Assembly: GCA_027493055.1 (NCBI GenBank)
Contig: JAPUDO010000012.1
Location: 1 to 64,000 of the forward strand
Length of the DNA stretch: 64,000 bases
DNA from: Niabella sp.
Lineage (GTDB): Bacteria; Bacteroidota; Bacteroidia; Chitinophagales; Chitinophagaceae
Reading direction: 5' to 3'
Part shown: piece by piece, positions 1-58,455 of the stretch
How the letters are laid out: each line of letters opens with the position of its first letter
How positions within the stretch are numbered: the stretch's first letter is position 1
Position numbers and translations under genes: made by a program
Notes under the pieces: generated by a model
Database searches by the model: none
What the model saw: the letters and a program-made list of their open reading frames with translations, nothing else
What the model was told of the DNA's origin: nothing

Positions 1-319
1 ACAATCAAGCAGTTAGCCTTCGACAAGCTCAGGCTGACAATACTTTTTAGTCAACACCATATAGTTCATGGCCAAACCCGGTGAATTGAACATCGAGCAT
101 TCCTCCCCCCGTCCGTACCGGCACGGGCGGACGTCCGGACAGGCGGGGATTGTTGAGCATTGAATATTGAGTGTTCGGGTATTCTATACAAATGCGTCAA
201 ATATTCAATAATCAATTTTCAATACATCAATATTCAATCGTAGTAAAGAGCGTTCTGCTTTTAGCCTTCGGCCTTTATCCTCCGTCTTCAGACCTCGGAC
301 GTCCTGACTTTCCGACTGA
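1..319. repeat. Intergenic mosaic: GC-rich palindrome plus 7-bp-period arrays
   Basis: No gene is seen here. From about 150 to 240 the sequence is an AT-rich array that can be cut into heptamers (GTTGAGC, ATTGAAT, ATTGAGT, then ATATTCA, ATAATCA, ATTTTCA and similar). From about 262 to 318 a second array has different words but the same spacing (GCTTTTA, GCCTTCG, GCCTTTA, TCCTCCG, TCTTCAG, ACCTCGG). It runs up to the gltX stop codon. A 44-nt GC-rich palindromic element separates the arrays from the left edge. Confidence 0.7.
105..148. repeat. GC-rich palindromic repeat, copy 1
   Basis: This C/G-rich 44-nt element contains the internal palindromes GGACGTCC and CCGGTACGG-like arms. Its reverse complement matches positions 23120-23162 with a single mismatch. 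The flanks also match on both sides: a cattcct next to the C run, and attgttgag/attattgag beyond the G run. It therefore looks like one dispersed element of roughly 90 bp in two orientations. A shorter relative sits at 56592-56615. Confidence 0.7.
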
Positions 320-12146: not shown

Positions 12147-12226
12147 GTGGCATAGTGTTATCACCTGCCACAATTTGATTAAGAGTTAAGAATTACGAAT
12201 TGCTGCCGTAGCGCGGTGTTATCACC
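12147..12226. repeat. Two copies of a GTGTTATCACC word
   Basis: The 11-mer GTGTTATCACC occurs at 12155-12165 and 12216-12226. The first copy is framed by inverted GTGGCA/TGCCAC arms (12147-12152 and 12166-12171). The same word, in both orientations, recurs at 34489-34499 and 34523-34533. A 10-nt version is at 61411-61420. Confidence 0.55.
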
Positions 12227-12268
12227 AACATTTTAAAAAATTAAACACTAAAAATTAAAAATTAAAAG

Positions 12269-13204: not shown

Positions 13205-13924
13205 ATGACAAAACTCTCAGTAAATATAAATAAAATAGCTACTTTAAGAAATTCGCGCGGCGGCAATAACCCCAACCTTATACAAATGGCGCTGGACGCG
13301 GAAAAATTTGGTGCAGATGGCATAACCGTGCATCCCAGGCCGGATGAAAGGCATATACGGTATGCCGATGTACGGGAACTGAAGCCTTTGCTTGCTACCG
13401 AATTGAACATTGAAGGCAACTGCACCGAACAAAAATTTGTTGACCTGGTGCTGGAAGTAAAACCCCGCCAGGTTACATTAGTGCCGGATGCCCAGGGACA
13501 GCTTACCAGCGATCATGGCTGGGATACCATCGCACATAAAGATTATCTTACCCATATTATTGGTATTTTTAAGGCCGCAGGCATAAGGGTTTCGATTTTT
13601 GTTGATCCCGATGAAAAAATGGTGGAAGGCGCTGCCGCTACAGGAACCAGCAGGATAGAGCTATATACCGAAAGCTATGCCAGCCACTACCATGAAGACA
13701 GGGATAAAGCAATTGAACCGTATATAAAAGCCGCTAAAAAGGCCCGGGAGCTGGGGCTGGGACTGAACGCAGGTCACGATCTTGACTTAAAGAATCTTGG
13801 TTTTTTTGCCGGCTGCATTCCCTGGCTGGACGAAGTAAGCATTGGCCATGCCATTATTTGCGATGCCCTGTACCTGGGTTTTGAAAATACGATACAGCTT
13901 TACAAAAGGCAGCTCTTTGTTTAG
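13205..13924 (+). CDS. pdxJ: Pyridoxine 5'-phosphate synthase
   Basis: Cytoplasmic TIM-barrel enzyme that condenses 1-deoxyxylulose 5-phosphate with 3-amino-2-oxopropyl phosphate to give pyridoxine 5'-phosphate. The family pattern is complete: [16 protein letters not shown] at the N-terminus, [20 protein letters not shown] and [10 protein letters not shown], where the conserved His and Glu line the active site. The length of 239 residues is normal. Nothing downstream looks co-transcribed; a hairpin-rich, heptamer-containing spacer follows. Confidence 0.96.
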
Positions 13925-14160
13925 AGGACAGATGTCAGTGGACGGATGACAGATAACAGCAAACCTCGATGCTCAGCGAAACATTTTGTTTCGCAGGACT
14001 ATTTTGTAGCCTTTGGCTACAGAGTTTCAGAACTACAAGGTCCCTAAAAGGGATGTTAAAACGACATTGCTCTCCAGGGCCTTAAACAAAAAATATGATG
14101 TCCCTACAACAGCAAACCTTTTGTTTTGATTTCTCGTCAATTGTATGGAAATTTAAGCGT
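13925..14160. repeat. Heptamer array followed by three small hairpins
   Basis: From about 13925 to 13962 the reverse strand can be cut into heptamers of the CTGTCAT type (CTGTTAT, CTGTCAT, CCGTCCA, CTGACAT). Three compact stem-loops follow within 80 bp: 13976-13994 (GCGAAAC/GTTTCGC), 14005-14021 (TGTAGCC/GGCTACA) and 14041-14053 (TCCCT/AGGGA). No gene is seen. Confidence 0.55.
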
Positions 14161-14541
14161 ATGAACTACTTCCTCACATTTATTCTTTCTTTTTGGGTAT
14201 TCGGTGCCCATGCGCAGCGGGTAGAAAGTATTCATTTTCATTTATATACAGACAGCCTTAAAAAAGGTACGCATAATTATATTAATGTAGACGGGAAAAT
14301 GAGCAATGGCAGCTGGCAACCACTTACCGCTAAGGAACTTGACTTTAAAACTGACTATGGGAAATTCAAGGGCAATGACCTGGTTCTGCCTGAAAATCCT
14401 TCGGTTAGTAAGGTATGTGTTACCGCTACTTTAAAAGCCGATAAACAAACTACCCAACAAATAACTATCTGGATAAAACAAAAACCCGATCCTCCGCTGC
14501 CTGTGTACAGCAGTGAAGCGGAAGCGAGAAAACGGAAGTAG
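14161..14541 (+). CDS. Hypothetical exported protein
   Basis: This 126-residue protein of unrecognised family has a clear signal peptide (MNYFLTFILSFWVFGAHA, cleaved before QRV). The remainder is beta-rich, with a YINVDGKMSNGSWQPL segment and a positively charged tail ending in RKRK. Such short all-beta exported proteins are common in Bacteroidetes without a known role. I start at the ATG at 14161 because the signal begins there; the frame is open 22 codons upstream. A heptamer array starts directly after the stop codon. Confidence 0.6.
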   Translation: MNYFLTFILSFWVFGAHAQRVESIHFHLYTDSLKKGTHNYINVDGKMSNGSWQPLTAKELDFKTDYGKFKGNDLVLPENPSVSKVCVTATLKADKQTTQQITIWIKQKPDPPLPVYSSEAEARKRK

Positions 14542-14855
14542 ATACTGGATGCAGGTTACTGGATACTGGTTGCCAGATCCACTTAACATCCTACATTTAA
14601 TTGAGTATAGAATTTCTGCCCTATATGGTTTATAGCTTAGGGCCGGAGGCTTAAGGCAGGAGGCTTTTATCTTTTTGCTTCCAGCTTTCTGCTTTTGGCT
14701 TTCATATCGTACACCTTACATTGTACATTTACATCATCCTGTTTACTGGATTGTGCATCCAGCTTTTGGCTTTCAGCCTTTTGCTTCCGGCTTTCATATC
14801 GTACATCGTACACCTTACATCGTACATTATGCGGCTTACCCTCACCAGCTAACTC
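14542..14855. repeat. Long composite 7-bp-period array
   Basis: This spacer between two converging genes is almost wholly readable as heptamers, with the word changing in blocks. 14544-14575 has GATACTG, GATGCAG, GTTACTG, GATACTG, GTTGCCA. About 14636-14668 has GCTTAGG, GCCGGAG, GCTTAAG, GCAGGAG. About 14679-14703 has GCTTCCA, GCTTTCT, GCTTTTG, GCTTTCA. About 14705-14735 has CCTTACA and TTGTACA. About 14762-14796 repeats the GCTTTTG block. About 14799-14830 has TCGTACA, TCGTACA, CCTTACA, TCGTACA. No open reading frame in it is convincing. Confidence 0.75.
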
Positions 14856-15173
14856 TTACGCCTGTGCTGTTGGTCCGCCAAAGTTTACCGGGATCTGCAC
14901 TTCATCCAGGTCTTTTATGGGTCCCTGAATAGCTTCAAATTTCTCAATATTATCTATCATAGCCTTCATGAAACGCTTAGCGTGCTGCGGCGTTAATATA
15001 ATGCGTGCTTTTACTTTACTTTTTGGCGTGCCCGGCATAATATTTACAAAGTCAAACACAAACTCAGCATGTGAATGCGTAATGATAGCAAGATTGGCAT
15101 AAGTGCCTTCTGCCACTTCTTCTGATATCTCTATGTTAAGCTGATTGGGTTGTTGATCCTGCATGAAATTCAT
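14856..15173 (-). CDS. DUF3467 family protein
   Basis: A 105-residue cytoplasmic protein matching DUF3467, found widely in Bacteroidetes and some archaea, with no established function. Family features seen are the early EEVAEGTYANL segment, HSHAEFVFDFV, the PGTPKSKVKARIILTP stretch and the helix AKRFMKAMIDNIEKFE. An internal ATG at 15164 is an equally possible start. It stands alone on the minus strand, between the Sus locus terminator and a heptamer array. Confidence 0.88.
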   Translation of the reverse strand: MNFMQDQQPNQLNIEISEEVAEGTYANLAIITHSHAEFVFDFVNIMPGTPKSKVKARIILTPQHAKRFMKAMIDNIEKFEAIQGPIKDLDEVQIPVNFGGPTAQA

Positions 15174-15273
15174 TTTGTTTAGAACGAAGGTAATGAAAAA
15201 GAAATGGGCGCTATACCCGATTATTTAGCCTGGACAAACATTTGCTTTTTCAATAAAAAAGGCGTATAAATGA

Positions 15274-15305
15274 GAATGCCGCCTCACAAACAGGAGACGG
15301 CATTT
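15274..15305 (-). terminator. Hairpin terminator of the small Sus locus
   Basis: Inverted arms AATGCCG/CGGCATT extend, after one mismatch, by CTC/GAG around an ACAAACA-type loop. It lies about 100 bp beyond the last gene of the SusC-SusD-lipoprotein operon. A T-rich stretch (TCATTTAT...) follows on the minus strand. Confidence 0.65.
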
Positions 15306-15406
15306 CTTATTTCAGTTTATTAGCGAAATAGCCAAGCCAACAACGTAAGAATAAAAAATTCTGATTTTTTCATACTTTGATGACTTTAAAAATAGTCAAA
15401 ACACTA

Positions 15407-16246
15407 CTATGGCAAGGTGATAATTTCTTTACCTGGTCCAAAAGACCCGGCAGAAACAGTGAAGGCCCCAACATTTAATGTAACGACTTTGCCTGATATT
15501 GTTCCGGTAACATTAGTCATAGAAACTAAACCGTAACCATACTCTTGTTCATTGTATATCACCTGATTCGGGCATACTACTGTTTTCCCATCAGACTTAA
15601 TCATAAAGGCAAAACTTCTATGGCCAAAAGGTGATACAACTTTGTAAACATTAGCTCCTTTTGCCTTCTGGACATTTACCTCAAATTCTGTTTGAGAAAG
15701 TATTGTAGGCTCCTCATACACAGCTACCCAACCATTTGCAGAATTGAACCTTGCTTTTACCGGCGCATCAAATTCAAGCGTATTAGAAGCATTAATATCT
15801 ATTTTCTTTTTATTGGCAGGTGCTATATTAGCGTCTGCTATATTTAGCGAAAAGGGAAACGCCAACCCTACATTCACATCGGTTCCAGAAGCTGCGGTTA
15901 CAGACAAGGTACTGGGATCGATAGTTGAAAAATCGCCGTACTTTACTACTGCATAAGATTTGGCCTCACCACTGGCAAAATTTACCGGCCCGGCCATTGT
16001 AAATACATTGGTGTAGCCGGTTCCGGATGCCGTAACAGTAACAGGCACCGACAATTCTCCTGATGTGGAAGTGCGGCCTACAGGTACCTTCAGCTCTCCG
16101 CCAGTCATGTTTAAGCTGGTAGCAGTAGAAAAGAAGCTGATTTTATTGGGTTCTCCGCTATAAAGCGCGCCATCGGTTTTTTTGCAGGAAGAAAAAAACA
16201 ATAAAACCGTTAACGCTCCAAGTATATTTATATAAACTCTTTTCAT
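15407..16246 (-). CDS. SusD-associated surface lipoprotein (candidate glycan-binding)
   Basis: A 279-residue predicted lipoprotein with lipobox LLFFSSCKK near residue 21. The rest is beta-rich and low in cysteine. It has repeated strands rich in Thr, Ser and Gly in the first half, such as GELSVPVTVTASGTGY, resembling the Ig-like or DUF1735 modules found in SusE/SusF-like proteins. It is the third gene of a SusC-SusD-X operon, 18 bp after susD, the place normally taken by a surface glycan-binding protein. Ligand and exact family are not recognised. Confidence 0.65.
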   Translation of the reverse strand: MKRVYINILGALTVLLFFSSCKKTDGALYSGEPNKISFFSTATSLNMTGGELKVPVGRTSTSGELSVPVTVTASGTGYTNVFTMAGPVNFASGEAKSYAVVKYGDFSTIDPSTLSVTAASGTDVNVGLAFPFSLNIADANIAPANKKKIDINASNTLEFDAPVKARFNSANGWVAVYEEPTILSQTEFEVNVQKAKGANVYKVVSPFGHRSFAFMIKSDGKTVVCPNQVIYNEQEYGYGLVSMTNVTGTISGKVVTLNVGAFTVSAGSFGPGKEIITLP

Positions 16247-16264
16247 CCGTTTATTTTTTAATTT

Positions 16265-17809
16265 TTAAAGTGGGTTTTGATCTGTTGTAGCGTTCATATT
16301 AGGGTTACCATCAAATTCTTTTTGAGGAATGGTTAAAATAAACTCTTTGCTGGCAGCCTCCAGTGTGTTCCAGGTTGGCTTAGAACTATGATTGGAGCCT
16401 GTAACATTCCTGTTAAACCCTGTTTTAAGGCGCAGGACATCAAAAATACGCTCTGCTTCACCCCAAAGCTCAATCCGGCGCTGCAATATGATATGGTCCA
16501 TCAGTGTTACCGGGGAACCGGTAGAACCCATAGTAAGCTCCTTAGATAAAGTGGCCTGGTCTAAAGTAGCCTGGTACCCTGTTGGGTTTCTAAGTTTCCA
16601 TAGTGCTGCTAAAGCGTCTTTAGCCTCCGCATACCTTTCGGCATGACACAGGGCCTCTGCTTTAACCAGCTGCATTTCCTCGGCGCGCATAAAAACATAA
16701 TCACCCAGATCTGCTGCCACATCTGAATACCTGAATTTAACCTGGTTATAAGGCTTGGTAACATTGGTGCCCCCGTCTGTAGCACCATTCCACCATTTTT
16801 TACGGGCATCAGCTGCAGGTATCATACCATACAACCAGCTATAGATACATTTACGGGATGATTTGGCATAACGGTCAGCTGATGCATCCATGTGTGAGAA
16901 AAAGGAAGAATATATGGTAGACTGATCGGCAATAATCTCGGCTCCCCACATTACATTTTTTAACTTGGTGCTGTTAAACCCTGAATACAGGTCATCTCCG
17001 CTAATCATAGCCAACCCCGACTTTGATAATGCTTCAGTAGCTGCTGCGGCTGCTTCGGTCCATTTGTTCTGCACCAATGCTACATTAGCTTTTATAGCCT
17101 GTGCCACATAATAATCTACATGCGATTTGTGAGATTGTTTTCCTTTTGCAGCAAATAGTTCTATAGCTTTATTGATATCTGCATTTATCTGTGTATAGAC
17201 ATCTTCCACTGTTCCTCTTCCCTTACCTTCAGCAGCTGATGTGGTAGGTTCGGTATAAAGAGGTACCCCCGGAGATGTTTGATGACCAATATAAGTTTGC
17301 TGGAAAGACTGGATCAGCTGGAAATAAGCATAGGCACGCATAGCATAAGCCTGCGCCATAATATTATCTATTACAGCCTTATCGCCCGGTATCTTACCAT
17401 CTTCCGCAAGGATATAATTTGCATTGCTAACCAGAGAGTAATAGAAGTTCCAGGTAGCATACGGCCTCCATGTAGTTAAGGTATAACGGCTTCTTACATC
17501 GTAACGGTAATCAAAATAAAACCAGCCATTACCCTGGGCATCCTGAACCATATCCTCACCCATAAGTGAAGTGTACAGCTTGGTTGACATAATACCAAAA
17601 TTCTGGCCATTATTACCGGTAGCCCACCCTGAAGAATATAACATACGGTAAATACCATCCATTGCAACCTGCGCACCATCCGCAGTCTCAAATAACGTGG
17701 GTGCTGCTACTCTGTCTGTAGGGCTGGTCTCTAAAAAATCCTTTTTACAGGAAACAAGGCTCAGCCCCATAAAAAGTGTTGATATATATATGTACTTTTT
17801 CATTGTCAT
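16265..17809 (-). CDS. RagB/SusD family nutrient uptake lipoprotein
   Basis: A 514-residue outer-membrane lipoprotein that forms the lid of the SusC transporter and captures ligand. The lipobox (LSLVSCKKDFLE) and the SusD opening TSPTDRVAAP are clear. Tetratricopeptide-like helices (QAYAMRAYAYFQLIQ) and the C-terminal LQRRIELWGEAERIFDVLR motif are also present. Only 4 bp separate it from the upstream SusC gene, so the pair is translated together. No sugar-active enzyme is adjacent, so the ligand could be a peptide or glycan. Confidence 0.94.
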   Translation of the reverse strand: MTMKKYIYISTLFMGLSLVSCKKDFLETSPTDRVAAPTLFETADGAQVAMDGIYRMLYSSGWATGNNGQNFGIMSTKLYTSLMGEDMVQDAQGNGWFYFDYRYDVRSRYTLTTWRPYATWNFYYSLVSNANYILAEDGKIPGDKAVIDNIMAQAYAMRAYAYFQLIQSFQQTYIGHQTSPGVPLYTEPTTSAAEGKGRGTVEDVYTQINADINKAIELFAAKGKQSHKSHVDYYVAQAIKANVALVQNKWTEAAAAATEALSKSGLAMISGDDLYSGFNSTKLKNVMWGAEIIADQSTIYSSFFSHMDASADRYAKSSRKCIYSWLYGMIPAADARKKWWNGATDGGTNVTKPYNQVKFRYSDVAADLGDYVFMRAEEMQLVKAEALCHAERYAEAKDALAALWKLRNPTGYQATLDQATLSKELTMGSTGSPVTLMDHIILQRRIELWGEAERIFDVLRLKTGFNRNVTGSNHSSKPTWNTLEAASKEFILTIPQKEFDGNPNMNATTDQNPL

Positions 17810-17813
17810 TGGA

Positions 17814-20800
17814 TTAAAAATTAACGTTGATTCCCATAGAAATTATCCTGTTAGGGGTAAAAACATAGTCAGTTGTTCCGGTAAAATTATACTGGGGGTT
17901 CATACCCTGGCGGGCTGAAAACATAACTAAATTATCGCCCTGTATAAAGTATCTTACAGAGTTAAGCCCTATGCGGTTAATATCAAAGGTATATCCTGCG
18001 GATACGCTTTTGATAGAGAAATAAGAAGCATCAACTATGGCCCTGTCATTTATAGTATGCGTTACTTCTTTTTGCATTCTGGGCACATCTGTTATATCTC
18101 CTGGTTGTTTCCACGCCCTTAATACTTCCCTTGAGAGGTTATTTCCTATATACAGCGGGTTCAGGTAATTGTATCCTACCACATCGTATATTTTACCTCC
18201 TATAGAATATGCTGTGAGTAAAGAAAAATCAAGTTTTTTAAAGTTTAATGTAGTTCCTAAAGAACCATATAATTTAGGGATCCGGTTGCCTGCAATTACC
18301 CTGCTGGCAGCCGCCTTATTTTTATCGCTTGAGATATAATGTTTGCTGCGGTCAAATTCATCTTCCTTCTTGTCATACACCCAGTATAACTGGTCTCCTG
18401 TAGCTGGGTCAACCCCTGCACTCCTTGCCATATAGAAAGAATTGATAGGTTCTCCTACCCGAATGATCGTAGTACCGCTGATAATTTCTTTCTGATCACC
18501 AGTCAGTTTAAGCACTTCATTTTTCACTTTGGATGCCATGGCCGTTATATTCCATGTTACATCTCCATTCCTTATGACATCATAGCCAACAGACACGTCA
18601 ATACCAGAGTTCTTCATATCTCCCACATTGTCATTAAACCCGTCAAAGCCCAGGGACAAAGCCAATGGCCTGTTCAATAACATGTCCGTAGTTTTACGTG
18701 TGTACCAGTCAAAACTTACCGTAAGCCTGTTCTTTAAGAACCTGCCATCAAAACCTATATTAAGGCTCTGGTTCTTTTCCCAGCTCACTTTTTTGTTTTC
18801 CACTGAAGTTACTATACCTCCATTATTATTAGCGTTATTCCATGTAAGGTCATAAAAAGCCTGCCAGGCATAATAGGCTGAAGCAGCATCATACAGCAGA
18901 TCATTGTTACCCTGTCCGCCATAGCTGGATTTAACAGTAAAGCTGTTCAGCCAGGTAAGCCCCTGAAGAAATTCTTCTTCAGAAATTTTCCATGCACCAC
19001 CTATGGACCAAAACTGTCCCCACCTGTTATCTTTGAAGAACCTGGAAGAACCATCTGTACGGAAACTACCCGACAAATAGTATTTTTTAGCGAAGTTGTA
19101 TTCTACCCTTGATAAATAGGATTCCAGGTTATCATTATTTTCATAAGAATTGGCATCGGCAATGGATGAACCGGGAGCCAGCTCATAAAGACCACCAAAC
19201 GGGAACCCTGTTTTTTGCGCGCTCAGCAAATTAAACTTATAGGCATAGCTTTCATGCCCTGCTAAAACATCTACGGCATGATCACCAAAACTCCTGTTCC
19301 AGGTTAACAGCTGGTTAAAGGTATAAGAGAAAGTTTTGTTCCATTCTTTATTCAGGCGGCCCGATCCGGCTGCATTACCGAAATAAGGGTTATAATAATA
19401 AGTATAAGCCCTGTCAATATAATCAGCCCCAAGGTTGAATGTTAAAGCAAATCCCTGGAAAGCGCCATATTTCTGGTCCCTTGTATTAAACTCTACAGAC
19501 GCCCTGCTCCCTACGTTGTTTCTAAAGTCATAATATTTATCATCGTACAGAACAGCTATAGAGTTAAAGTTTTGCTGAGCACCGGCAGCCCTGTTCACAC
19601 TATAATCAAACAGCTTCTCACCATTAGCGCCCAGTTTATAGGTGCCGTCCGCATTACGCTGATAAATAGGATAAATAGGCGCCATTTGCTCGGCAGAATA
19701 CCACACATTCGAAGTTGAACTGCCCGTAACACCCAACATATTTGATGTTCCTTTAGAAAGGTTCATTGATAAGCTTGTCTTAAACCAGTCTTTGGGTGTA
19801 AATTCAGTATTAGCACGTCCGGTGAACCTGTTAAATGAGGTTGTTTTCAACAATCCGTCCTCCCTTAGCACATTTATGGATGCAAATCCCTTCATTACAT
19901 TGTTGCCCCCGGAAAGATCAAGCTGATATTCCTGGCGTACAGGATTTTTAGCCATTACTTCATCCAGCCAGTTGTCGTTCCATTTCAGCTGTGCAGAAGG
20001 ATTCAATTTTCCGGTAACGGGATCTATCAGCTGGTCTACCGGTACATTGTACGGGTTAAACTCTTCATTCACACCAAAGATGGGATCTACCGTACCTTTC
20101 ATCCGGTTTAATGCATTAATGCCTGCCTGGCTTTCAGGAATTCCTTTTTCAAAGATCTCCTGGTTCTTATATGCCATGAATACTGTTTCCAGGTACTCCT
20201 GTGCATTCATTACATCATACCTTTTAACAGCACGGGAAGCTACCCCTACATTTGCTTTAAAGTTTACATTTATTTTACCTGCTGTATTTCTTCCTGATTT
20301 GGTAGTGATCATTACCACACCGTTTGCTGCCCGGGAGCCATAAAGAGTAGAGGCCGCCGCATCTTTCAATACAGTAATGTTCTCCACATCATTAGGGTTG
20401 ATAGAGTTCAAATCACCTTTGAACGGAACTCCGTCAACTACATATAAAGGATCAGCAGAGGCATTGATAGAACCAAATCCTCTTATCCTTACTCCTGCGT
20501 TAGCACCAGGCTGTCCCGAGCCCAGGGTGGAAACCACGCCCGGCGCAGCACCATCTAAAGCTTTTGTGATGCTGGTTAAAGGACGCCTTTCAATTGCCTC
20601 TGCATTTATTGCCGTAGCCGCACCCGTAAATGTTGATTTTGTTGATTTTCCGTAAGCGGTAACAATAACTTCATCAATGACCTGCCCTTCTCCTTTTGTA
20701 AGAACTGCATTAACCGTATTGCCCCTTACTGTTACCTCAATTGTGGTAAAACCTGTGGCTGAAAACACCAAAGTGCTTCCAATAGAAGCATTGATGCTGA

Positions 20801-20975
20801 AGTTACCATCAGCATCCGCCGAAACACCGGTATCCGTGCCTTTGATAGAAACAGAGGCAAAAGGTACCGGGTTGGCAGCTTCGTCCACCACCGTACCTGT
20901 AACCGTCCTGGTTTGAGAAAAAGCCAGAAACGAAAATCCCATAAACATTGCTAAAAGCAATAGAATTTTTCTCAT
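17814..20975 (-). CDS. SusC/RagA family TonB-dependent outer-membrane transporter
   Basis: This 1053-residue transporter begins with a signal peptide (MRKILLLLAMFMGF) and a carboxypeptidase-D-like beta-sandwich (TVTGTVVDEAANPVPF). A plug domain with the SusC signature (GSINASADPLYVVDGVPF) and a beta-barrel ending GINVNF follow. It imports the substrate captured by the SusD partner, powered by TonB. I chose the ATG at 20975 because the signal peptide starts there; the frame is open 26 codons upstream. No anti-sigma or sigma gene is adjacent, so local regulation is not apparent. Confidence 0.95.
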   Translation of the reverse strand: MRKILLLLAMFMGFSFLAFSQTRTVTGTVVDEAANPVPFASVSIKGTDTGVSADADGNFSINASIGSTLVFSATGFTTIEVTVRGNTVNAVLTKGEGQVIDEVIVTAYGKSTKSTFTGAATAINAEAIERRPLTSITKALDGAAPGVVSTLGSGQPGANAGVRIRGFGSINASADPLYVVDGVPFKGDLNSINPNDVENITVLKDAAASTLYGSRAANGVVMITTKSGRNTAGKINVNFKANVGVASRAVKRYDVMNAQEYLETVFMAYKNQEIFEKGIPESQAGINALNRMKGTVDPIFGVNEEFNPYNVPVDQLIDPVTGKLNPSAQLKWNDNWLDEVMAKNPVRQEYQLDLSGGNNVMKGFASINVLREDGLLKTTSFNRFTGRANTEFTPKDWFKTSLSMNLSKGTSNMLGVTGSSTSNVWYSAEQMAPIYPIYQRNADGTYKLGANGEKLFDYSVNRAAGAQQNFNSIAVLYDDKYYDFRNNVGSRASVEFNTRDQKYGAFQGFALTFNLGADYIDRAYTYYYNPYFGNAAGSGRLNKEWNKTFSYTFNQLLTWNRSFGDHAVDVLAGHESYAYKFNLLSAQKTGFPFGGLYELAPGSSIADANSYENNDNLESYLSRVEYNFAKKYYLSGSFRTDGSSRFFKDNRWGQFWSIGGAWKISEEEFLQGLTWLNSFTVKSSYGGQGNNDLLYDAASAYYAWQAFYDLTWNNANNNGGIVTSVENKKVSWEKNQSLNIGFDGRFLKNRLTVSFDWYTRKTTDMLLNRPLALSLGFDGFNDNVGDMKNSGIDVSVGYDVIRNGDVTWNITAMASKVKNEVLKLTGDQKEIISGTTIIRVGEPINSFYMARSAGVDPATGDQLYWVYDKKEDEFDRSKHYISSDKNKAAASRVIAGNRIPKLYGSLGTTLNFKKLDFSLLTAYSIGGKIYDVVGYNYLNPLYIGNNLSREVLRAWKQPGDITDVPRMQKEVTHTINDRAIVDASYFSIKSVSAGYTFDINRIGLNSVRYFIQGDNLVMFSARQGMNPQYNFTGTTDYVFTPNRIISMGINVNF

Positions 20976-21293
20976 GTAAAACTTTTTTGTTAAAAATGAA
21001 TTAAATCGGATTAAAAAAGAAATCTGGTATAAAGCATACGCAGTTCTTTTCATTCAAAGGAGGGAAGTTATATTTTTTTTAACAAAACATTGGTTTCTTG
21101 TTAATATTTTTTTCAGATTAAATTATTACTGCTTTAGAAGAATTTTTATAAAAAAATGATAATCAATGACATATTTTTGTATATAAAAAAAATAGTATAT
21201 AATAAATTGACTAAAATCAACCGGCTATTTTCAGCATTTTTTACCTGAGCTGTCAAAATAAAATTATTTCCCCCGGCCTTCACAAACTTTATG
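20976..21293. other. AT-rich divergent promoter region
   Basis: No gene is seen between susC (minus) and folD (plus). The part from 21060 to 21240 is over 75% A/T with several T runs, typical of an upstream promoter region of a strongly expressed SusC gene. I could not fix a minus-strand -7 box with confidence. The folD box is listed separately. Confidence 0.4.
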
Positions 21294-21301
21294 CATCTTT
21301 G
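21294..21301 (+). promoter_or_regulatory. Probable -7 box of folD
   Basis: CATCTTTG (one base off TAnnTTTG) ends 4 nt before the ATG at 21306. The sequence CATCTTTGCAC is identical to the lspA box. The short distance implies a leaderless mRNA. Confidence 0.5.
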
Positions 21302-21305
21302 CACG

Positions 21306-22181
21306 ATGCAATTATTAGATGGAAAAAAGACGGCCAAAGCTATCTTAAATACAATTAAAATAGACGTGGCCCAGCGTGCTGCAACAGGGAAAAAAGTGCC
21401 TCATTTAGCAGCTATTTTAGTAGGAACCAATGGAGCGAGCCAGACTTATGTGAATTCGAAAGTTAAAACCTGCAACGACATCGGGTTTATATCTACCTTA
21501 ATAGAATATGAGGAAGATGTGAGCGAAATGAGGCTGCTTGACAAAATACAGGAACTGAACGAAGATATATCAGTGGATGGCATACTGGTGCAATTGCCCC
21601 TGCCTCCTCATATTTCAGAAGAGAAAGTAATAGAAGCCATTGCTGTTTCAAAGGATGTGGACGGTTTTCACCCCGAAAATATGGGTAAAATGATCATGAG
21701 CGAAGACGCTTTTATTCCTGCCACGCCTTATGGCATTATGCTTTTACTGGAACATAATAATATTCAAACCAAGGGCAAACATGCCGTGGTGCTGGGCAGG
21801 AGCCATATTGTGGGCCGCCCTATAAGTATATTATTAAGCAATAATTCCAACCCCGGCAACTGTACGGTTACCGTTTGCCACTCTAAAACGGAGAATCTGG
21901 AGGAAATATGTAAGCAGGCCGATATTATTGTGGCCGCTATTGGCAGGCCTGAGTTTTTAAAGGCTGAAATGGTAAAAGAGGGCGCTGTGGTGATTGATGT
22001 AGGTATTACCCGCCTCGAAGACGCTACCAAAAAATCGGGTTACAGGCTGGCAGGCGATGTGGATTTTGAGCATGTAGCGCCCAAATGCGCTTTCATCACG
22101 CCCGTTCCGGGTGGTGTAGGCCCCATGACCATCGCCGCATTGATGAAAAATACGTATAAATCTTGTGTGGATAGGGATTAG
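21306..22181 (+). CDS. folD: Bifunctional methylenetetrahydrofolate dehydrogenase/cyclohydrolase
   Basis: Cytoplasmic enzyme of one-carbon metabolism. It oxidises 5,10-methylene-THF with NADP+ and hydrolyses the product to 10-formyl-THF for purine synthesis. The signature segments are present: [13 protein letters not shown] with the catalytic Lys, [13 protein letters not shown], and the Rossmann motif [12 protein letters not shown]. The C-terminal [18 protein letters not shown] is also seen. The length of 291 residues is normal. The ATG at 21306 (MQLLDGKK) fits the family start; one five codons upstream would lie within the promoter box. Confidence 0.96.
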
Positions 22182-22301
22182 GGGAAATGCAGAATATTGA
22201 ATATTAAATGTAGAAGGTAAAACCAAGCATCAGATATCAGACATCAGACATCTCAAATAACATCCACAGTACTTGCTTCTATAACCGGGACACTTCCCGT
22301 T
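22182..22301. repeat. 7-bp-period array between folD and queE
   Basis: About 22191-22221 reads as heptamers ATATTGA, ATATTAA, ATGTAGA, AGGTAAA. About 22226-22253 reads as AGCATCA, GATATCA, GACATCA, GACATCT. The word changes between the two blocks but the 7-bp period is kept. Confidence 0.65.
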
Positions 22302-22883
22302 ATGGAACATTTTTACACCCTGCAGGGCGAAGGCTTTCACCAGGGAAGGGCGGCTTACTTTATACGGCTGGGGGGCTGCGATGTGGGCTGTGTATGGTGC
22401 GATGTGAAGGAAAGCTGGCCTATGGAGGGACATCCTGTTCTGAGCATTGAAGAGATTGTTTCAACGGTAAAGCAATCAGGTACCCCATTAGCCGTTATTA
22501 CAGGCGGTGAACCCCTGATGCACAACCTGGATACCCTTACAAAATCCTTACAAAAGGAGGGCATTGAAACTAATATTGAAACATCAGGGTCCTCCCCTCT
22601 TTCCGGCAGCTGGGACTGGATTTGCCTTTCCCCAAAAAAGTTTAAAGCGCCATTGCCTGAAATTTTACCTGTAGCCCACGAACTCAAAATAATTATATAT
22701 AACTCATCAGATTTTTCCTGGGGAGAACGCTTTGCAGCACAGGTTTCTGAAAAATGCAAATTATACCTGCAACCCGAATGGAGCAAGGCTGATAAAATGA
22801 CGCCCCTTATTGTAGATTATATTAAAAATAACCCTAAATGGGAACTCAGCCTGCAGCTACATAAGTATATTAATGTACCGTAG
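22302..22883 (+). CDS. queE: 7-carboxy-7-deazaguanine synthase
   Basis: A radical SAM enzyme that converts 6-carboxytetrahydropterin to 7-carboxy-7-deazaguanine in the queuosine/preQ0 pathway. The N-terminal FYTLQGEG and the CDVGCVWC cluster motif (CX3CX2C, the QueE form) bind the 4Fe-4S cluster. AVITGGEPLM is the SAM-binding GGE motif. The 193-residue length suits the Bacteroidetes form. The family usually starts a few residues earlier (LPVMEHFY is encoded here too), but no upstream ATG, GTG or TTG is in frame, so ATG 22302 is kept. Confidence 0.94.
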   Translation: MEHFYTLQGEGFHQGRAAYFIRLGGCDVGCVWCDVKESWPMEGHPVLSIEEIVSTVKQSGTPLAVITGGEPLMHNLDTLTKSLQKEGIETNIETSGSSPLSGSWDWICLSPKKFKAPLPEILPVAHELKIIIYNSSDFSWGERFAAQVSEKCKLYLQPEWSKADKMTPLIVDYIKNNPKWELSLQLHKYINVP

Positions 22884-23502
22884 AGGAGATGACAGATGAC
22901 AGATGACAGGGGACAGATGGGAGGTTGATAGGTTGAAAAGTTTAAGGTTTAAAAGTTGTTGAAGATGGTTGTTAGTTAGTATTTAGACGTTAGTATTAAG
23001 ACGACAGACGGTTTGAGGTTCAAAGTTCCAGCATCCAATATCCAGCGGCCAGTAACCAACATCTCTGAACTATGAACCAAACAGTACAGAAATTCTATAC
23101 TCAGATAATACTCAATAATCCCCGCCTGACCGGACGTCCGCCCGTGCCGGTACGGACGGGGGCAGGAATGTTCAATGCTCAATATTCATCGGATACTCAT
23201 TCAACATTCTACATTCAATATTTTACATTCCCTATATTCTGTCATCTGTCATCTCAAAACTGTCAACTAAAAAAAAGCACCCCTTATAGAAATAAACGGT
23301 GCACTCTCGAAAACTATCTGCTTAAGGAAAACTATACTTTTTTTGTCGGGACAACTCTCTAAAAACTACCTGCTGTTTACAAGAGAAAAAGCCGGAGAAG
23401 CCCTGATTGCTTTTGTTAACACAAAAATAGACGGCCTGGTTAAAGGTGGTTGTCGAAATCGGGAAAAACCATTTACGAGATCGGGAAAATTTAAGCGGCC
23501 CA
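22884..23502. repeat. Composite 7-bp-period array region with GC-rich element
   Basis: This gene-free spacer lies between converging queE and an ABC exporter gene. 22884-22920 holds heptamers of the CTGTCAT family (reverse strand). About 22977-23012 has TTAGTAT, TTAGACG, TTAGTAT, TAAGACG, ACAGACG. About 23014-23085 has GTTCAAA, GTTCCAG, CATCCAA, TATCCAG, CGGCCAG, TAACCAA. About 23165-23232 has TGTTCAA, TGCTCAA, TATTCAT and CATTCTA, CATTCAA, TATTTTA. About 23238-23265 returns to CTGTCAT. A GC-rich element interrupts at 23120-23162. From 23280 to 23502 I see no array and no gene, apart from an imperfect repeat of ctctcgaaaactatctgct (about 23304) near 23355. Confidence 0.75.
23120..23162. repeat. 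GC-rich palindromic repeat, copy 2 (inverted)
   Basis: Reverse complement of 105-148 with one mismatch over 43 nt. Both flanks also match the first copy. The 16-mer GAGTATAGAATTTCTG that lies next to this copy (reverse strand, 23087-23102) also occurs at 14603-14618 inside another array. Confidence 0.7.
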
Positions 23503-25320
23503 TTATAATGAACCGGTCCTGCTTAATGATTTGGCCAAACGCTCAATATTCATACTCCTGGCTGACGCGTCAAATATATCTTTGTACACCCCATCTTTCT
23601 TTACCAGGTCTTCATGCTTGCCGCTTTCCACCAGCCGGCCCTGCTTTAATACATAAATAATATCCGCATCTACAATCTGGGAAATAGAATGCGAAATAAT
23701 TACAACGGTCCTGTTTTGTTTGATGGCATCCAGGCTGTTCTTGATCTGTTCTGTAGCAATAGCATCAAGACTGGCGGTAGGTTCGTCTAAAAATATAATG
23801 GGCGGATCTTTTAAAAACAACCTGGCAATAGCAATGCGCTGCTGCTGGCCGCCGCTTAGTAATTGCGCATCACTTTTATACTGCATAGGCAATTCCATTA
23901 CCTGGGTGTGCAGGTAAGCCTTTTTTGCAGCAGCTGTTATTTCTTCATAGGAGGCATCTGTTTTCCCATAGCGGATATTATCTTCTATGGTGCCTTTAAA
24001 AATATGATTCTTTTGAAGCACCAATCCTATCTCACTTCTTAATGAGCCGTTTTCATATTCTGATAAAGGCATGCCATCAAGTAATATTTCCCCACTGTCC
24101 GGCTGATAAAACTTGTTAAGCAAATTGAGTATAGTGCTTTTGCCGGCACCGCTTAAACCCACAAGCGCCGTGGTTTTGCCACGTTCTATTTTCAGGCTTA
24201 TATCATACAACGCTTTGGTTCCATTGGGATAGGTAAAATCTACATGGCGCATTTCAAACGTTCCTTCTGCTTCTGTTACAATATGTTTGCCGCTTTGTTC
24301 TATTCCATCATCGTCTTCAATAATCTGGAAATAAGCCTCGGCATAAATAAATGCATCGTTCACCTCATCATAGATCCTGTGCAGCTGCCTGATAGGGGCC
24401 GACACATTGTTGAACAACATAATGTGCAGCATGATGGCTCCAATGCTTATCTGGTGCATGAGTACCAGGTAAGCGGTAAGAATGATGATTAATACAACAC
24501 CAATCTGTTCTATAAAGCTCTTTACACCATCATAAGTAAAGTTGGTTTTGCGGGTGTACAGCTGGTTATCTGTCAGCTGCTGCTGGATGTCCAGCTGCTT
24601 CTTTTCTTCCACATCTTCCTTCACAAAGCTTTTGATAACCGTCATAGAGTCGATGATATTGAGTAAGCCGTTGCTTTTATTTTCCCTGCCGCCGCGCAGC
24701 TGCCGCCTTACGCCCTGTAATTTTTTGGCCTGCCTTGCGCTTACATAGAAATAGGCCGGCAGTATGGTAATGGCTATCAAACCAACATACACATTGGCCA
24801 TAAACATAATAATGAGCGCCAGTATGGAGTTACAGAAAAGTGGCAGAATATCTATAAAAAAATTCTGCACCAGGCGGGTAAGGCTTTCAACGCCTCTGTC
24901 TATACGGGTTTGCAGCTTGCCCGACTGGTTTTCGGGCGATGCAAAAAATCCCATGTGATAGGTGAGTATGCGACTGATGGCTTTTTGTGCCAGGCTATTG
25001 CTTACATTGATACGGATCTTTTCCCCGTAAAATTTTTGCCCGAACTGGATAAAAATATTTACGATTTCTTTTGTGAAAAGAACAACGGAAATAAAGATCA
25101 GCAGCTTCGCCCCTTCCTTCATAGGAGCCGGCGCTTGCAGTAAAGCATCTACATGATCAATCGTATATTTTAAAATAAGCGGGTTCACCTGCGCTGCCAG
25201 CGCCCCTATCAGTGTTAACGTAAGCGTACCGAATACCATGGTACGATATGGCTTTACAAAAGGCCATAGCTGCTTTACTATGTTAACAAGATTTAAGGTT
25301 TTGGAAAAAGGTTTGGCCAC
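23503..25320 (-). CDS. ABC exporter, fused permease and ATPase
   Basis: A 605-residue half-transporter with six membrane helices (residues 1-330) and a C-terminal nucleotide-binding domain. Walker A is GLSGAGKST, the Q-loop follows in GLVLQKNH, the signature is LSGGQQQR and Walker B is IIFLDEP, with the switch His in IISHS. The layout matches MsbA-like or multidrug exporters that act as homodimers. The substrate (lipid or drug) cannot be told. It stands alone on the minus strand, with heptamer arrays on both sides. Confidence 0.92.
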   Translation of the reverse strand: MAKPFSKTLNLVNIVKQLWPFVKPYRTMVFGTLTLTLIGALAAQVNPLILKYTIDHVDALLQAPAPMKEGAKLLIFISVVLFTKEIVNIFIQFGQKFYGEKIRINVSNSLAQKAISRILTYHMGFFASPENQSGKLQTRIDRGVESLTRLVQNFFIDILPLFCNSILALIIMFMANVYVGLIAITILPAYFYVSARQAKKLQGVRRQLRGGRENKSNGLLNIIDSMTVIKSFVKEDVEEKKQLDIQQQLTDNQLYTRKTNFTYDGVKSFIEQIGVVLIIILTAYLVLMHQISIGAIMLHIMLFNNVSAPIRQLHRIYDEVNDAFIYAEAYFQIIEDDDGIEQSGKHIVTEAEGTFEMRHVDFTYPNGTKALYDISLKIERGKTTALVGLSGAGKSTILNLLNKFYQPDSGEILLDGMPLSEYENGSLRSEIGLVLQKNHIFKGTIEDNIRYGKTDASYEEITAAAKKAYLHTQVMELPMQYKSDAQLLSGGQQQRIAIARLFLKDPPIIFLDEPTASLDAIATEQIKNSLDAIKQNRTVVIISHSISQIVDADIIYVLKQGRLVESGKHEDLVKKDGVYKDIFDASARSMNIERLAKSLSRTGSL

Positions 25321-25541
25321 TGAGGAAATGTTGAAAGGTTGAAAAGTTCAATAGTTAAAAAGTTGAAAGGGTAAAATCTCGTTGCAAGTTGCAGGTTACT
25401 GGATACTGGTTGCTGATCGTGCATTATACGCCTTACATCGTACATTATCCCCGATACTGGAGGGTGGTTACAGGATGCGGGTTACTGTCTAACGTCTAAG
25501 TACTAATATCTAATGTCTTGAACACAGAAACCTGGAACCCG
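25321..25541. repeat. Continuous 7-8-bp-period array between two minus-strand genes
   Basis: The whole spacer can be read as short tandem words. About 25328-25370 has an 8-bp variant (GGTTGAAA, AGTTCAAT, AGTTAAAA). 25383-25415 has GTTGCAG, GTTACTG, GATACTG, GTTGCTG. About 25423-25450 has CCTTACA and TCGTACA. About 25452-25490 has GATACTG, GAGGGTG, GTTACAG, GATGCGG, GTTACTG. It then passes without a break into TCTAACG, TCTAAGT, ACTAATA, TCTAATG, TCTTGAA, CACAGAA, ACCTGGA. It ends at the stop codon of the thiolase gene. Confidence 0.75.
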
Positions 25542-55259: not shown

Positions 55260-55379
55260 AATATTGAATAGTAAATGATCAAATATTCAACAGTCAATGC
55301 TCAATATTCATTGAGCGTTGGTCTTCGGAGACATAATTGAGCATTGATTATTGCATATTGAAAATTGAGTGCTTTTACC
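55260..55379. repeat. 7-bp-period AT-rich array
   Basis: The spacer between converging rpiA and a small membrane-protein gene reads as ATATTGA, ATAGTAA, ATGATCA, then ATATTCA, ACAGTCA, ATGCTCA, ATATTCA. After a short GC-rich break (about 55316-55332) it continues with ATTGAGC, ATTGATT, ATTGCAT, ATTGAAA, ATTGAGT. The words overlap those at 150-240 and 23165-23232. Confidence 0.7.
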
Positions 55380-55694
55380 TTACCTTCCGCACCTGTTCCT
55401 CCAGGCTTCCTTAAGTTTTTCCTTTTCTTCATCGGTCATATTCCTGAACCTTTCACGAAAACCTCTTGACGGGCCACCACATTTCTTGCGTCCCCCGCCA
55501 AAACCTCCGAATAATATTTTACTCAGCACCAAAATACCCAAAGCCTGCCAGTAGGTAATAGCCGATACATGTAATACATCAGGCAATATGGCGTTCCACA
55601 GTAACATCACTATAGCCCCGAAACCAAAAACAGCGGCAACACCACATAGTGCAATAACAAATTTTGGTGGGCCAAATCTTCTTTTATCATTCAT
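55380..55694 (-). CDS. Small two-helix membrane protein downstream of an ECF sigma factor
   Basis: A 104-residue protein with two membrane helices (about residues 10-32 and 40-62) and a basic C-terminal helix (RERFRNMTDEEKEKLKEAWR). It begins 10 bp after the sigma factor gene, so it is probably co-transcribed. It is not a classical FecR-type anti-sigma factor. A role in holding or sensing for the sigma factor is only suggested by position. The family is not recognised. Confidence 0.65.
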   Translation of the reverse strand: MNDKRRFGPPKFVIALCGVAAVFGFGAIVMLLWNAILPDVLHVSAITYWQALGILVLSKILFGGFGGGRKKCGGPSRGFRERFRNMTDEEKEKLKEAWRNRCGR

Positions 55695-57020: not shown

Positions 57021-58383
57021 AAAATCCTGCTTCAGCCAGTTGCTCAAAAGTTACCTGCTGCTGCTCACCGCTTGCAAGGTTTTTAATATTCACAATACCC
57101 TGCTCCAATTCCCTGCTGCCCAAAATAGCCACATAAGGAATGGCCTTTTTTTCAGCGTATTTAAACTGCTTGTCAAATTTTGCATTTTCGTGAAAAACCT
57201 CGCAGCTGATATTTTTACTTCTTAATTGTTGTGCCAACTCCATCGCTTTAGCTGCTTCGGCTTCTCCAAGATTAAAAAACAGGATCTTTGTACCGGCAGC
57301 TGTTTCCCCGGGAAAAAGATCCAGTTCGCTCATGACGTCATAAATTCTATCCACACCAAAAGAAATGCCCACCCCCGGCACATCCGGCACTCCAAACAAA
57401 CCGGTAAGATCATCATAGCGGCCACCGCCGCCAATACTGCCGATCTGCACCCCCAGGGCTTTCACTTCAAAAATGGTTCCGGTATAATAATTCAGTCCGC
57501 GGGCAAGGGTCACATCGAGGGACAGCTGACAGTTGGCAGTTGACAGATGACAGTTATCTACAATATATTTCAGCTCTTCCACGCCTTTTAAGCCGGTTTC
57601 GTTTCCCGTAAAAATGGCTTTTAGCTGTGTAAGCTTTTCTTCATTGCTTCCTGTAATATTTAAAAAAGATTCAATGATCTGTACCTGCGTATCATCCAGT
57701 CCCCTACCCCGCAACTCTTCTTTTACTTTCTCTATCCCGATCTTATCCAGCTTATCAATAGCAATGGTTATATCCGTCAGCTTTTCTGCACCACCACATC
57801 TATCAGCTAAAGCAGCCAATATCTTACGGTTGTTGATCCTTATTTCTACCGGAATATGCAGCTTTTGAAAAACCGTGGCATACATATTAACCAGTTCCAG
57901 CTCATTCAGTAAAGACCTGCTTCCCACCACATCCGCATCACACTGGTAAAATTCGCGGTAGCGGCCTTTCTGCGGCCTGTCGGCCCGCCATACCGGCTGT
58001 ACCTGGTACCGTTTAAAAGGCATAGCTAATTGCTGATGGTTCATGGCTACATAACGTGCAAAAGGAATGGTAAGGTCATAGCGCAGGGCCCGTTCCGTAA
58101 TATCCTTGCTGGATTTCCCCCCCATTATTTTTTCAAATCCGGCTTTGGTTTTTTCAAACTTGGCTTCATTGTCCAGCCCATTATTCAGGATCTTGAAAAT
58201 GAGCTTATCCCCTTCTTCACCATATTTGCCCATGAGAGTATCCAGGTTTTCCATGGCCGGTGTTTCCAGCGGCTGAAAACCGTACAGCTCAAAAACGGTT
58301 CTTATGGTATTAAATATATAACTGCGCTTACGCACTACTTCCGGGCCAAAATCACGTGTGCCCTGTGGTATGGTTGGTTTCAT
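57019..58383 (-). CDS. hisS: Histidyl-tRNA synthetase, carrying an in-frame heptamer array
   Basis: A 454-residue class II synthetase that charges tRNA-His. The motifs are intact: KPTIPQGTRDFGPE at the start, RYDLTIPFARYVA, FKRYQVQPVWRADRPQKGRYREFYQCD (motif 2), LARGLNYYTGTIFEV and GSIGGGGRYDDLTGLFG. I start at ATG 58383. The frame is open 18 codons further, but those codons lie in a heptamer array and do not look like HisRS. At about residues 277-288 the segment NCHLSTANCQLS has a seven-residue period and is encoded by five imperfect copies of CTGTCAN. This occurs where relatives have a variable linker before the catalytic LARGL motif. Confidence 0.93.
   Translation of the reverse strand: MKPTIPQGTRDFGPEVVRKRSYIFNTIRTVFELYGFQPLETPAMENLDTLMGKYGEEGDKLIFKILNNGLDNEAKFEKTKAGFEKIMGGKSSKDITERALRYDLTIPFARYVAMNHQQLAMPFKRYQVQPVWRADRPQKGRYREFYQCDADVVGSRSLLNELELVNMYATVFQKLHIPVEIRINNRKILAALADRCGGAEKLTDITIAIDKLDKIGIEKVKEELRGRGLDDTQVQIIESFLNITGSNEEKLTQLKAIFTGNETGLKGVEELKYIVDNCHLSTANCQLSLDVTLARGLNYYTGTIFEVKALGVQIGSIGGGGRYDDLTGLFGVPDVPGVGISFGVDRIYDVMSELDLFPGETAAGTKILFFNLGEAEAAKAMELAQQLRSKNISCEVFHENAKFDKQFKYAEKKAIPYVAILGSRELEQGIVNIKNLASGEQQQVTFEQLAEAGF
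57521..57553 (-). repeat. Five-copy 7-bp array inside hisS
   Basis: On the coding strand the DNA reads CTGTCAT, CTGTCAA, CTGCCAA, CTGTCAG, CTGTC. The first 13 bases are identical to the intergenic array at 23238-23250. The same family occurs at 13925, 22226 and 22884. Confidence 0.7.
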
Positions 58384-58455
58384 TATTTTCTGTTCATAGT
58401 TCATGGCCTGTCGTTCATGGTGTTGTCTATGGACCATAAACTATTGACTATGGGC
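58384..58455. repeat. 7-bp-period array upstream of hisS
   Basis: The spacer between the phosphatase stop and hisS reads GTTCATA, GTTCATG, GCCTGTC, GTTCATG, GTGTTGT, CTATGGA, CCATAAA, CTATTGA, CTATGGG. It could encode an 18-residue N-terminal extension of hisS, but that is not needed for function. Confidence 0.65.

Follow-up and report, generated by a model that had tools for sequence, protein, structure and literature searches.

The 64,000-nucleotide stretch of Niabella sp. DNA analyzed here (Bacteroidota, Chitinophagaceae; GenBank assembly GCA_027493055.1, contig JAPUDO010000012.1, positions 1 to 64,000; hereafter the window) carries in its intergenic spacers tandem arrays of 7-bp units whose sequence, or word, changes from array to array. 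We consider it probable that these heptamer arrays are intact or decayed arms, in inverted orientation, at the ends of small stem-loop elements, the complete form of which encodes a PF05635 protein between the arms. PF05635 is the family of the 23S rRNA intervening-sequence protein (S23 or IVP, also named "four helix bundle protein"). The original prediction, made from the letters of the window, had noted tandem blocks with a common period; these blocks appear instead to be the mirrored arms of a specific element, and they track PF05635 genes; they do not look like free-standing tandem arrays.

The arrays are physically linked to the gene. Inverted arms, taken as those with a score of at least 14, framed 49 of 60 PF05635 loci from Bacteroidota, versus 4.8% in a control in which left and right flanks were swapped between loci; these 60 loci, like 30 from Gammaproteobacteria, were the best-scoring profile matches and not a random sample. 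Within 100 bp of the gene, the lag-7 match of the Bacteroidota loci was 0.355 to 0.391 on both sides, falling to 0.24 to 0.27 beyond 150 bp, while lag 8 reached 0.31 to 0.33 and lags 5, 6, and 9 were nearly flat. Lag-7 arrays lay no more than 300 bp away upstream at 27 loci and downstream at 30, and at 800 to 1,100 bp these numbers were 5 and 3. In the Niabella genome to which the window belongs (the own genome), arms scoring at least 14 were found at all 17 IVP loci examined, 9 of which had no control. These 17 loci hold 19 of the 20 PF05635 matches of the genome (two genes have two matches each), and the match at C76:58341 was left out.

The same arrangement extends well beyond the phylum. 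Arms were present at 18 of the 22 gammaproteobacterial loci with full flanks (8 of the 30 were left out), versus 9.5% in the control, and here the lag-7 match was 0.429 near the gene and 0.254 far from it, with other lags near background except lag 14. For plasmids, 18 of 26 matching records were used, from Cyanobacteria (14), Bacillota, Spirochaetota, Chloroflexota, and Bacteroidota. Seventeen of these loci had arms, versus a control of 17%, which is high because several loci share words; the lag-7 match was 0.47, and 16 loci had lag-7 arrays on both sides. The Nostoc-type heptamers CAATTCG, GTAATTC, and GAAGTCG at these loci are thus the arms of the IVP elements there. The parallel with cyanobacterial heptamers drawn in the original prediction was therefore apt, as the heptamers of Nostoc, Anabaena, and Dolichospermum flank this same family. 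Across these groups the words vary by lineage, with some recurring across families, and the arm upstream of the IVP gene was purine-rich in 60 of 83 elements (a set from which L251 was excluded as near-identical to L250 and L252).

None of the loci inspected for position lay in 23S rRNA: all 18 plasmid loci, like those of G003 and L178, sit between protein-coding frames. IVP genes also occur inside operons, for example between hsdS and hsdR in one plasmid record, and in two plasmid records the gene lies between cas2 and cas1, antisense to both. IVP genes have been reported in 18 cas loci, and repeats are not mentioned in the available portion of that report (PMC3936711, 2013). The family is common, with PF05635 found in 232 of 296 sampled Bacteroidota genomes and, in the class to which an Acinetobacter genome belongs (Gammaproteobacteria), in 76 of 369 sampled. 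Contig C1 of the 1.5-Mb genome G683 holds eleven PF05635 matches, mostly weak and near-identical in score; this set looks like a recent expansion.

The 7-bp period itself, claimed for the intergenic DNA of the window, proved real and specific. Over the 35 spacers of the window (8,073 bp), matches at lags 7, 14, and 21 exceeded those of dinucleotide shuffles with z values of 7.2, 7.5, and 4.1, and lags 5 to 6 and 8 to 13 stayed between -1.6 and 1.4. Lags 2 (z = 4.2), 3 (z = 5.2), and 22 (z = 2.5) were raised as well, and the coding DNA of the window gave no lag-7 signal. The comparison with lags 6, 8, and 9 proposed in the original prediction came out the same way on a larger scale: among 514 spacers (104.5 kb, drawn from 864 kb of the own genome with crude gene calls), 51 held arrays at lag 7, versus 2 at lag 6, 13 at lag 8, and 1 at lag 9. 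Lag-7 arrays in coding DNA of the own genome numbered 5 in 749 kb. Over 464 kb of the genome, segments scoring at least 12 numbered 55 at lag 7 and 42 at lag 14, versus 2 and 2 in one shuffled copy of the same DNA; lag 8 gave 15, and each other lag from 3 to 13 gave at most 5. Across the 864 kb, the match excess at lags 7, 14, 21, 28, and 35 was 0.027, 0.019, 0.011, 0.006, and 0.002. Because the excess falls with distance, adjacent units are most alike and the period is retained while the word drifts, which bears out the claim that the period outlasts changes of word.

The words are not unlimited, however. TCGTACATCGTACA occurs in 36 copies in the own genome (reversed control, 0) and is present in 8 of 59 related genomes, of which three belong to other genera. 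An expectation-maximization search returned a common skeleton, W-Y-V-A-W-R-G, with 2.61 bits versus 2.19 (SD, 0.04) in column-permuted arrays, which we do not rely on because related words were left in the set (one word was common to 14 of 169 arrays). Arrays made up 5.1% of spacer base pairs between convergent genes, 3.6% between tandem genes, and 3.2% between divergent genes in the own genome, and a strong preference for convergent spacers was rejected on these figures.

Mirroring of the arms is clearest in two relatives of the own genome, G025 (same family) and G055 (another family of the same order). Arrays there form mirrored pairs around unrelated loops, and the drift of the word along one arm is mirrored in the other, in one case at 27 of 27 letters; such mirrored drift implies that the arms inform each other. 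A mirrored partner scoring at least 14 was found for 18 of 26 arrays in G025 (control, 7.9%) and 19 of 71 in G055 (control, 5.8%). Many clusters in the window likewise hold both a word and its reverse complement.

The arms have also been amplified. The L178 IVP element of G025 is 531 bp long with perfect 33-bp inverted ends; its left arm contains the stop codon of the preceding frame, and the start codon of the next frame follows directly after the right arm. Copies of the 33-bp arm with up to 3 mismatches numbered 414 in G025, 166 in G065, and 148 in G066 (reversed control, 0), and none were found in the other three genomes searched (the own genome, G003, and G055). As G025 has only 6 PF05635 matches, nearly all of its arm copies must be gene-less. 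Polarity was strict: among the 150 matches listed, of 300, to a near-identical 18-mer in G065 and G066, adjacent sites less than 700 bp apart ran plus then minus 36 times, minus then minus once, and minus then plus never. Thirty-four of the 36 inward-facing pairs were spaced by less than 400 bp, too close for an IVP gene. Other hairpins, with arms of periods other than 7 (for example TTTTCATGATTGTCATGATT, CACTAAGGGCACTAAG, and CTTCGACAAGCTCAGC), occur in the same spacers of these three genomes (L163-L165, L226-L234).

Turnover can be followed directly, as sibling species differ in element, word, or loop content at the same gene junction. At one junction, G025 and G065 have an IVP gene in the loop, and G066 has a different kind of hairpin and keeps remnants of the arms. 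At C1:74464 of G025, both arms carry TTGAAAA; in G065 the left arm continues from TTGAAAA into an in-phase TTGAGAG, and the opposite arm carries the complementary new word, while the orthologous site of G066 retains only a stub. The original prediction had proposed a slippage or copying process that preserves period rather than sequence. Such a process is plausible in view of this in-phase switch of both arms, but simple slippage fails to account for mirrored arms or for fixed 33-bp ends.

A profile search found no PF05635 match inside the window, the arrays of which are all gene-less, and they were compared with IVP arms elsewhere. The words of the window resemble those in the arms of IVP genes from the own genome and from elsewhere in the genus. 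Own-genome IVP arms shared 46 of 378 11-mers with its gene-less arrays, versus 5 of 880 for random own DNA and 117 of 8,030 for the starts of array-free spacers; outside the genome, the counts were 90 of 2,082 for other Bacteroidota IVP arms and 12 of 986 for Gammaproteobacteria. The overlap with other groups means that some words are widely shared. The mean best score of 18 window arrays was 18.1 against the flanks of 32 Niabella PF05635 loci and 11.8 against array-free own spacers, with the Niabella flanks better for 16 of 18 arrays. Against a smaller set of gammaproteobacterial IVP flanks the mean was 14.2, the Niabella flanks being better for 13 arrays and tied for 1. Array density points the same way: 20 Bacteroidota genomes without a PF05635 match held 2 lag-7 arrays in 384 kb, and 8 IVP-rich genomes held 5 in 96 kb (one-sided binomial probability of ~0.005, which is too small because the arrays cluster in few genomes).

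The arrays of the window, to which no strand is assigned, are listed below, with scores against IVP flanks for most of them.

200..303, heptamer cluster (AATATTC, then GCTTTTAG and CGGAC words) on the 3' side of the gene ending at 320; 200-223 scores 18 against L243, and 250-303 scores 11, not above controls.
12179..12267, heptamer arrays TTAAGAA and AAAATTA between two plus-strand genes; the orthologous spacers of G003 and G001 differ.
13923..13964, arm-like array with the word TGACAGA, directly 3' of the stop codon of pdxJ (named by Pfam); scores 21 against the flank of L166, an IVP gene of the own genome.
14541..14569, arm-like array with the word GATACTG, beginning at the stop codon of 14095-14541; scores 16 against the flank of the IVP gene L183 (G003).
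14664..14827, composite arrays GCTTTTG/GCTTTCA and TCGTACA/TTACATC, found by the lag-7 detector; 14664-14729 scores only 14 at best, and 14762-14827 scores 20 against L240 and up to 38 against own-genome gene flanks holding gene-less arrays.
22192..22252, arrays GAATATT and CATCAGA in the folD-queE spacer.
22887..22916, left arm with the word AGATGAC, 3' of the queE stop codon; scores 20 against L166.
22917..23237, interior of that spacer, with arrays GGTTGAA, GTTTAAG, GTTAGAC, CATCCAA, and CATTCAA; missing from the short versions in G003 and G001.
23238..23254, right arm CTGTCATCTGTCATC, which reverse-complements the left arm at 22887; in G003 the two mirrored arms form a compact pair.
25325..25541, an 8-bp array (GTTGAAAA) followed by heptamers GTTACTG, TACATCG, and GTCTAAC, filling the spacer between ABC transporter and thiolase genes; 25466-25518 scores 20 against L171.
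55260..55310, left arm (words CAATATT and CAATGCT) of a hairpin that is intact but has no gene, lying between convergent genes.
55336..55368, right arm paired with 55260-55310 in this hairpin (inverted score, 18); scores 29 against L243, an IVP flank of the own genome.
57521..57553, TGACAG-type array within hisS, in frame; scores 21 against L176.
58384..58455, degenerate GTTCATG and CTATGGA words at the start of hisS, below the lag-7 detector.

For the arrays at 22192 and 23198, the best IVP match was L245. Most of the sites named in the original prediction were recovered (150-318, 13925-13962, 14544-14835, 22188-22255, 22884-23265, 25325-25541, and 55260-55375), the array at 58384-58455 being too degenerate for the detector, and the occasional 8-bp unit it described was seen at 25325-25376. 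Two arrays, at 12179-12267 and at 57521-57553 within hisS, are additional. The latter was considered as an inserted arm, and this was rejected, as the array replaces homologous residues with no net insertion relative to solved HisRS sequences.

Several of these spacers differ among relatives. In G003, from a sister species, the orthologue of the folD-queE spacer (22182-22301) is 588 bp long and holds a PF05635 gene between inverted GGATACTG/CCAGTATC arms. In three Niabella genomes the left arm of the spacer 3' of queE is of TGACAG type, and the interiors differ; G003 and G001 have the word family of 22887-22916 at the orthologous place, and the interior at 22917-23237 may represent nested insertions. 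The orthologue of the spacer at 14664-14827 is 69 bp with mirrored words in G003 and 35 bp in G001. At the site of 25325-25541, N. ginsengisoli has no array, and N. aurantiaca, N. drilacis, and Niabella sp. BIN29 have other words. When 55250-55385 was folded as DNA it gave a hairpin (z = -2.96), the sole one obtained in this way; lone arms did not fold by themselves (z = -0.14 for 13920-13970 and 1.56 for the L178 arm).

Two further observations concern the spacer 3' of queE. A GC-rich palindrome (CCTGACCGGACGTCCGCCCG...) at ~23120-23168, resembling repetitive extragenic palindromic (REP) sequences, occurs at several places in G003 with up to 93% identity. Beside the array, within 23265-23502 (GCACCCCTTATAGAAATAAACGGTGCACTCTCGAAAACTATCTGCTTAAGG...), ~60 bp are identical in three Niabella genomes and the surrounding spacer DNA is not. 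This stretch is possibly an RNA or regulatory site that is not annotated; Rfam gave no credible match on 23250-23510, and its one match in the window as a whole was a tRNA.

How copies arise, and what holds the period, can be put as a working model in which IVP would maintain the 7-bp spacing. The element would spread as DNA, with IVP acting in cis and, on gene-less copies, in trans. The arms would stay matched because, in a hairpin or cruciform formed by the pair, one serves as the template for the other, one-unit slippage would alter the copy number, and point changes would spread along and between arms, so that the word drifts and the 7-bp spacing stays. Since the words are free and the spacing is fixed, the simplest holder of the period is a shared protein; IVP is the putative one, an oligomer of which would touch the arms at 7-bp intervals, with little dependence on the letters, and so fix the spacing. 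When PDB sequences were searched with a profile built from 34 IVPs, the PF05635 structures 2RLD and 2GSC, each deposited with five chains, were returned along with one chance match; homology of PF05635 to Avd was not recovered by this search. It is possible, and we put it forward only tentatively, that PF05635 proteins recognize, and perhaps help rewrite, the ends of the element by their 7-bp spacing and not their sequence. This would make them part of a word-blind element family present in many phyla, with arms co-evolving, words turning over freely, and loops exchanged between arms that keep their place at gene junctions. Its traces would then be the heptamers long known in cyanobacteria and perhaps the Xanthomonas and Beggiatoaceae repeats too.

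A number of results weigh against the view of the arrays as arms of IVP elements, or against parts of it. In the own genome, arm pairing is weak: only 12 of 88 arrays had a mirrored partner scoring at least 14 (control, 9.9%), and at a score of at least 20 just 1 of 88 was paired, under the 3.9% of the control. Six of the 20 loci of the 33-bp arm that were fetched had no near partner. In 20 paired-arm records, cores were shared only by orthologous or duplicate records; gene-less cores resemble neither each other nor the IVP body, so simple internal deletion does not explain the gene-less elements. No target-site duplication was found in 16 elements, the mean flank repeat being 1.56 bp versus 1.50 bp with swapped flanks (1 of 16 reached 5 bp). 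Some IVP arms among the 60 Bacteroidota loci have 8-bp units. The link between window arrays and IVP arms is not exclusive either: plasmid IVP arms, mostly cyanobacterial, shared 69 of 916 11-mers with arrays of the own genome, so the words are not genus-specific; own gene flanks including gene-less arrays gave a mean of 15.3 versus 18.1 and in places exceeded IVP flanks; and for the GCTTTTG words of the window no matching IVP gene was found. The 5 arrays of the IVP-rich genomes were confined to 3 of the 8, a single genome supplying 3 of these arrays, and G055 has ~21 arrays per 100 kb with 2 PF05635 matches, so that density does not track copy number. Finally, IVPs are not unusually basic (median isoelectric point of 8.69 versus 8.2 at the 39 of 82 loci with a clean open reading frame), and basic charge was rejected as a sign of nucleic acid binding.

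Other explanations account for some of these data. That the arms are RNA-level stems of intervening sequences, selected because their pairing in the transcript lets a nuclease (RNase III or another) cut out or cap the insertion, with the DNA repeat as a by-product, is in our estimate unlikely. The gene family and layout do match those of the Coxiella 23S rRNA intervening sequence, with its 28-bp terminal stem and RNase III processing (described in the accessible part of PMC4990558), and in many of the 18 plasmid records the IVP gene is on the same strand as both annotated neighbors, although the genes between cas2 and cas1 are not. Arm mismatches argue against it: among the 83 elements, those of G.U type in the sense RNA were no commoner than those of A.C type (126 versus 119, p = 0.70), and selection on RNA stems as the main force was rejected for want of this bias. 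The lack of a G.U excess favors a process at the DNA level, such as arm-to-arm copying in a hairpin. We think it quite unlikely that the arrays are host-made punctuation of gene boundaries (an insulator, a terminator, or a site for a nucleoid protein) into which IVP genes insert preferentially as parasites. In six co-directional spacers of G055, each of the two mirrored arms is ~10 bp or less from its flanking gene (gene calls being crude), and the other arrays there abut one gene end, as many do, or neither; in addition, arm words are kept at an orthologous site while interiors change. Punctuation of this kind does not sit well with mirrored arms close to IVP genes in unrelated phyla, with the few arrays in IVP-free genomes, or with arrays swapped or lost at the same junction between sibling species.

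A classical transposon with an accompanying family of miniature inverted-repeat transposable elements (MITEs), having heptameric terminal inverted repeats and a DDE or HUH transposase, would explain the terminal inverted repeats, the high copy number, the gene-less copies, and the IVP genes inside operons. We hold it very unlikely, because there is no target-site duplication beyond chance in the 16 elements, on which ground classical transposition was rejected, and because copies have no core in common; PF05635 is, to our knowledge, not a known transposase family. Ordinary microsatellites, produced by 7-bp replication slippage and neutral drift with an IVP neighborhood that is coincidental, are hardly plausible at all. 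Unit-to-unit drift, decay with distance, and the weak pairing in the own genome are what they would predict, and heptameric repeats are over-represented in many bacteria (according to the consulted part of PMC4692102). They leave unexplained the mirrored arms with matching drift in relatives, the fixed 33-bp ends in hundreds of copies, the strict inward polarity of the listed pairs, and the near lack of arrays at lags 6 and 9; the proportion of arrays with mirrored partners in G025 and G055 does not fit direct repeats that lack an inverted partner. Slippage alone was rejected.

The stem-loop arrangement is not confined to IVP. PF13366 (GxxExxY) genes of the same genomes (L264-L289) are a second family of gene-in-hairpin elements, with inverted arms at 18 of 26 loci (control, 5.5%). 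As with IVP, a small gene lies between inverted arms, here with words of their own (CACAGAGG, CGCAAAGG) that are not heptameric: the lag-7 match was 0.278 near the gene and 0.244 far from it, and the highest value was 0.308, at lag 8. This different grammar suggests that the period of the arms goes with the encoded protein family.

Both halves of the association were known before. Heptamer repeats have been described from cyanobacteria, Xanthomonas, and Beggiatoaceae, and intervening sequences coding for S23 from 23S rRNA; in the open-access literature of PubMed Central we found no report tying heptameric repeats to PF05635, which is no proof of absence. The original prediction, which knew of no description of such an array family with changing words in Chitinophagaceae, did not mention that heptamer assemblages are already known from other Bacteroidetes (PMC4679880, in the portion available). 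Heptameric repeats and PF05635 now each predict where the other is found. We know of no accepted explanation for the heptameric repeats of cyanobacteria and other bacteria, and this puzzling class of repeats gains a testable one. We also know of no test of the function of the S23/IVP family, and IVP may be a protein that reads period rather than sequence. In such genomes, some of what counts as "spacer" DNA may derive from elements, which matters for the prediction of promoters and terminators.

Among known systems, REPIN/RAYT and MITE families have variable loops framed by short inverted repeats and reach hundreds of copies. The elements described here resemble MITEs and DDE transposons in having terminal inverted repeats in many copies (148 to 414 per genome in one genus) and differ from them in having no target-site duplication and in that gene-less copies lack the internal sequence of the full element. 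Unlike both REPIN/RAYT and MITE, they have periodic arrays as arms, are linked to PF05635, and show no duplication of the target. Ralph and McClelland reportedly described, in 1993, a 23S rRNA intervening sequence with an S23/IVP reading frame. The 428-nt intervening sequence in the 23S rRNA of Coxiella has such a frame and has been termed a selfish element, and the available text of that paper contains no occurrence of "heptanucleotide" (PMC4990558). Like these, our elements place a PF05635 gene in a stem-loop closed by terminal inverted repeats of ~28 to 35 bp; unlike them, they lie between protein genes, have arms made of heptamer arrays, include many gene-less copies, and show no RNA-strand bias. 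The closest match in the repeats themselves is with the short tandemly repeated repetitive (STRR) heptamers of cyanobacteria, which are likewise intergenic tandem 7-bp units with several drifting words, partly inverted. GGGAATC-type repeats are reported from Xanthomonas and Nostoc (PMC4692102) and TAACTGA repeats from Beggiatoaceae, cyanobacteria, and five Bacteroidetes (PMC4679880); the accessible portions of these papers discuss G-quadruplexes or translational regulation and do not tie the repeats to PF05635. In contrast to free-standing STRR repeats, the arrays here cluster beside PF05635 genes and mirror each other and, in contrast to the account given in the STRR papers, the cyanobacterial heptamers found here beside IVP genes are mirrored arms.

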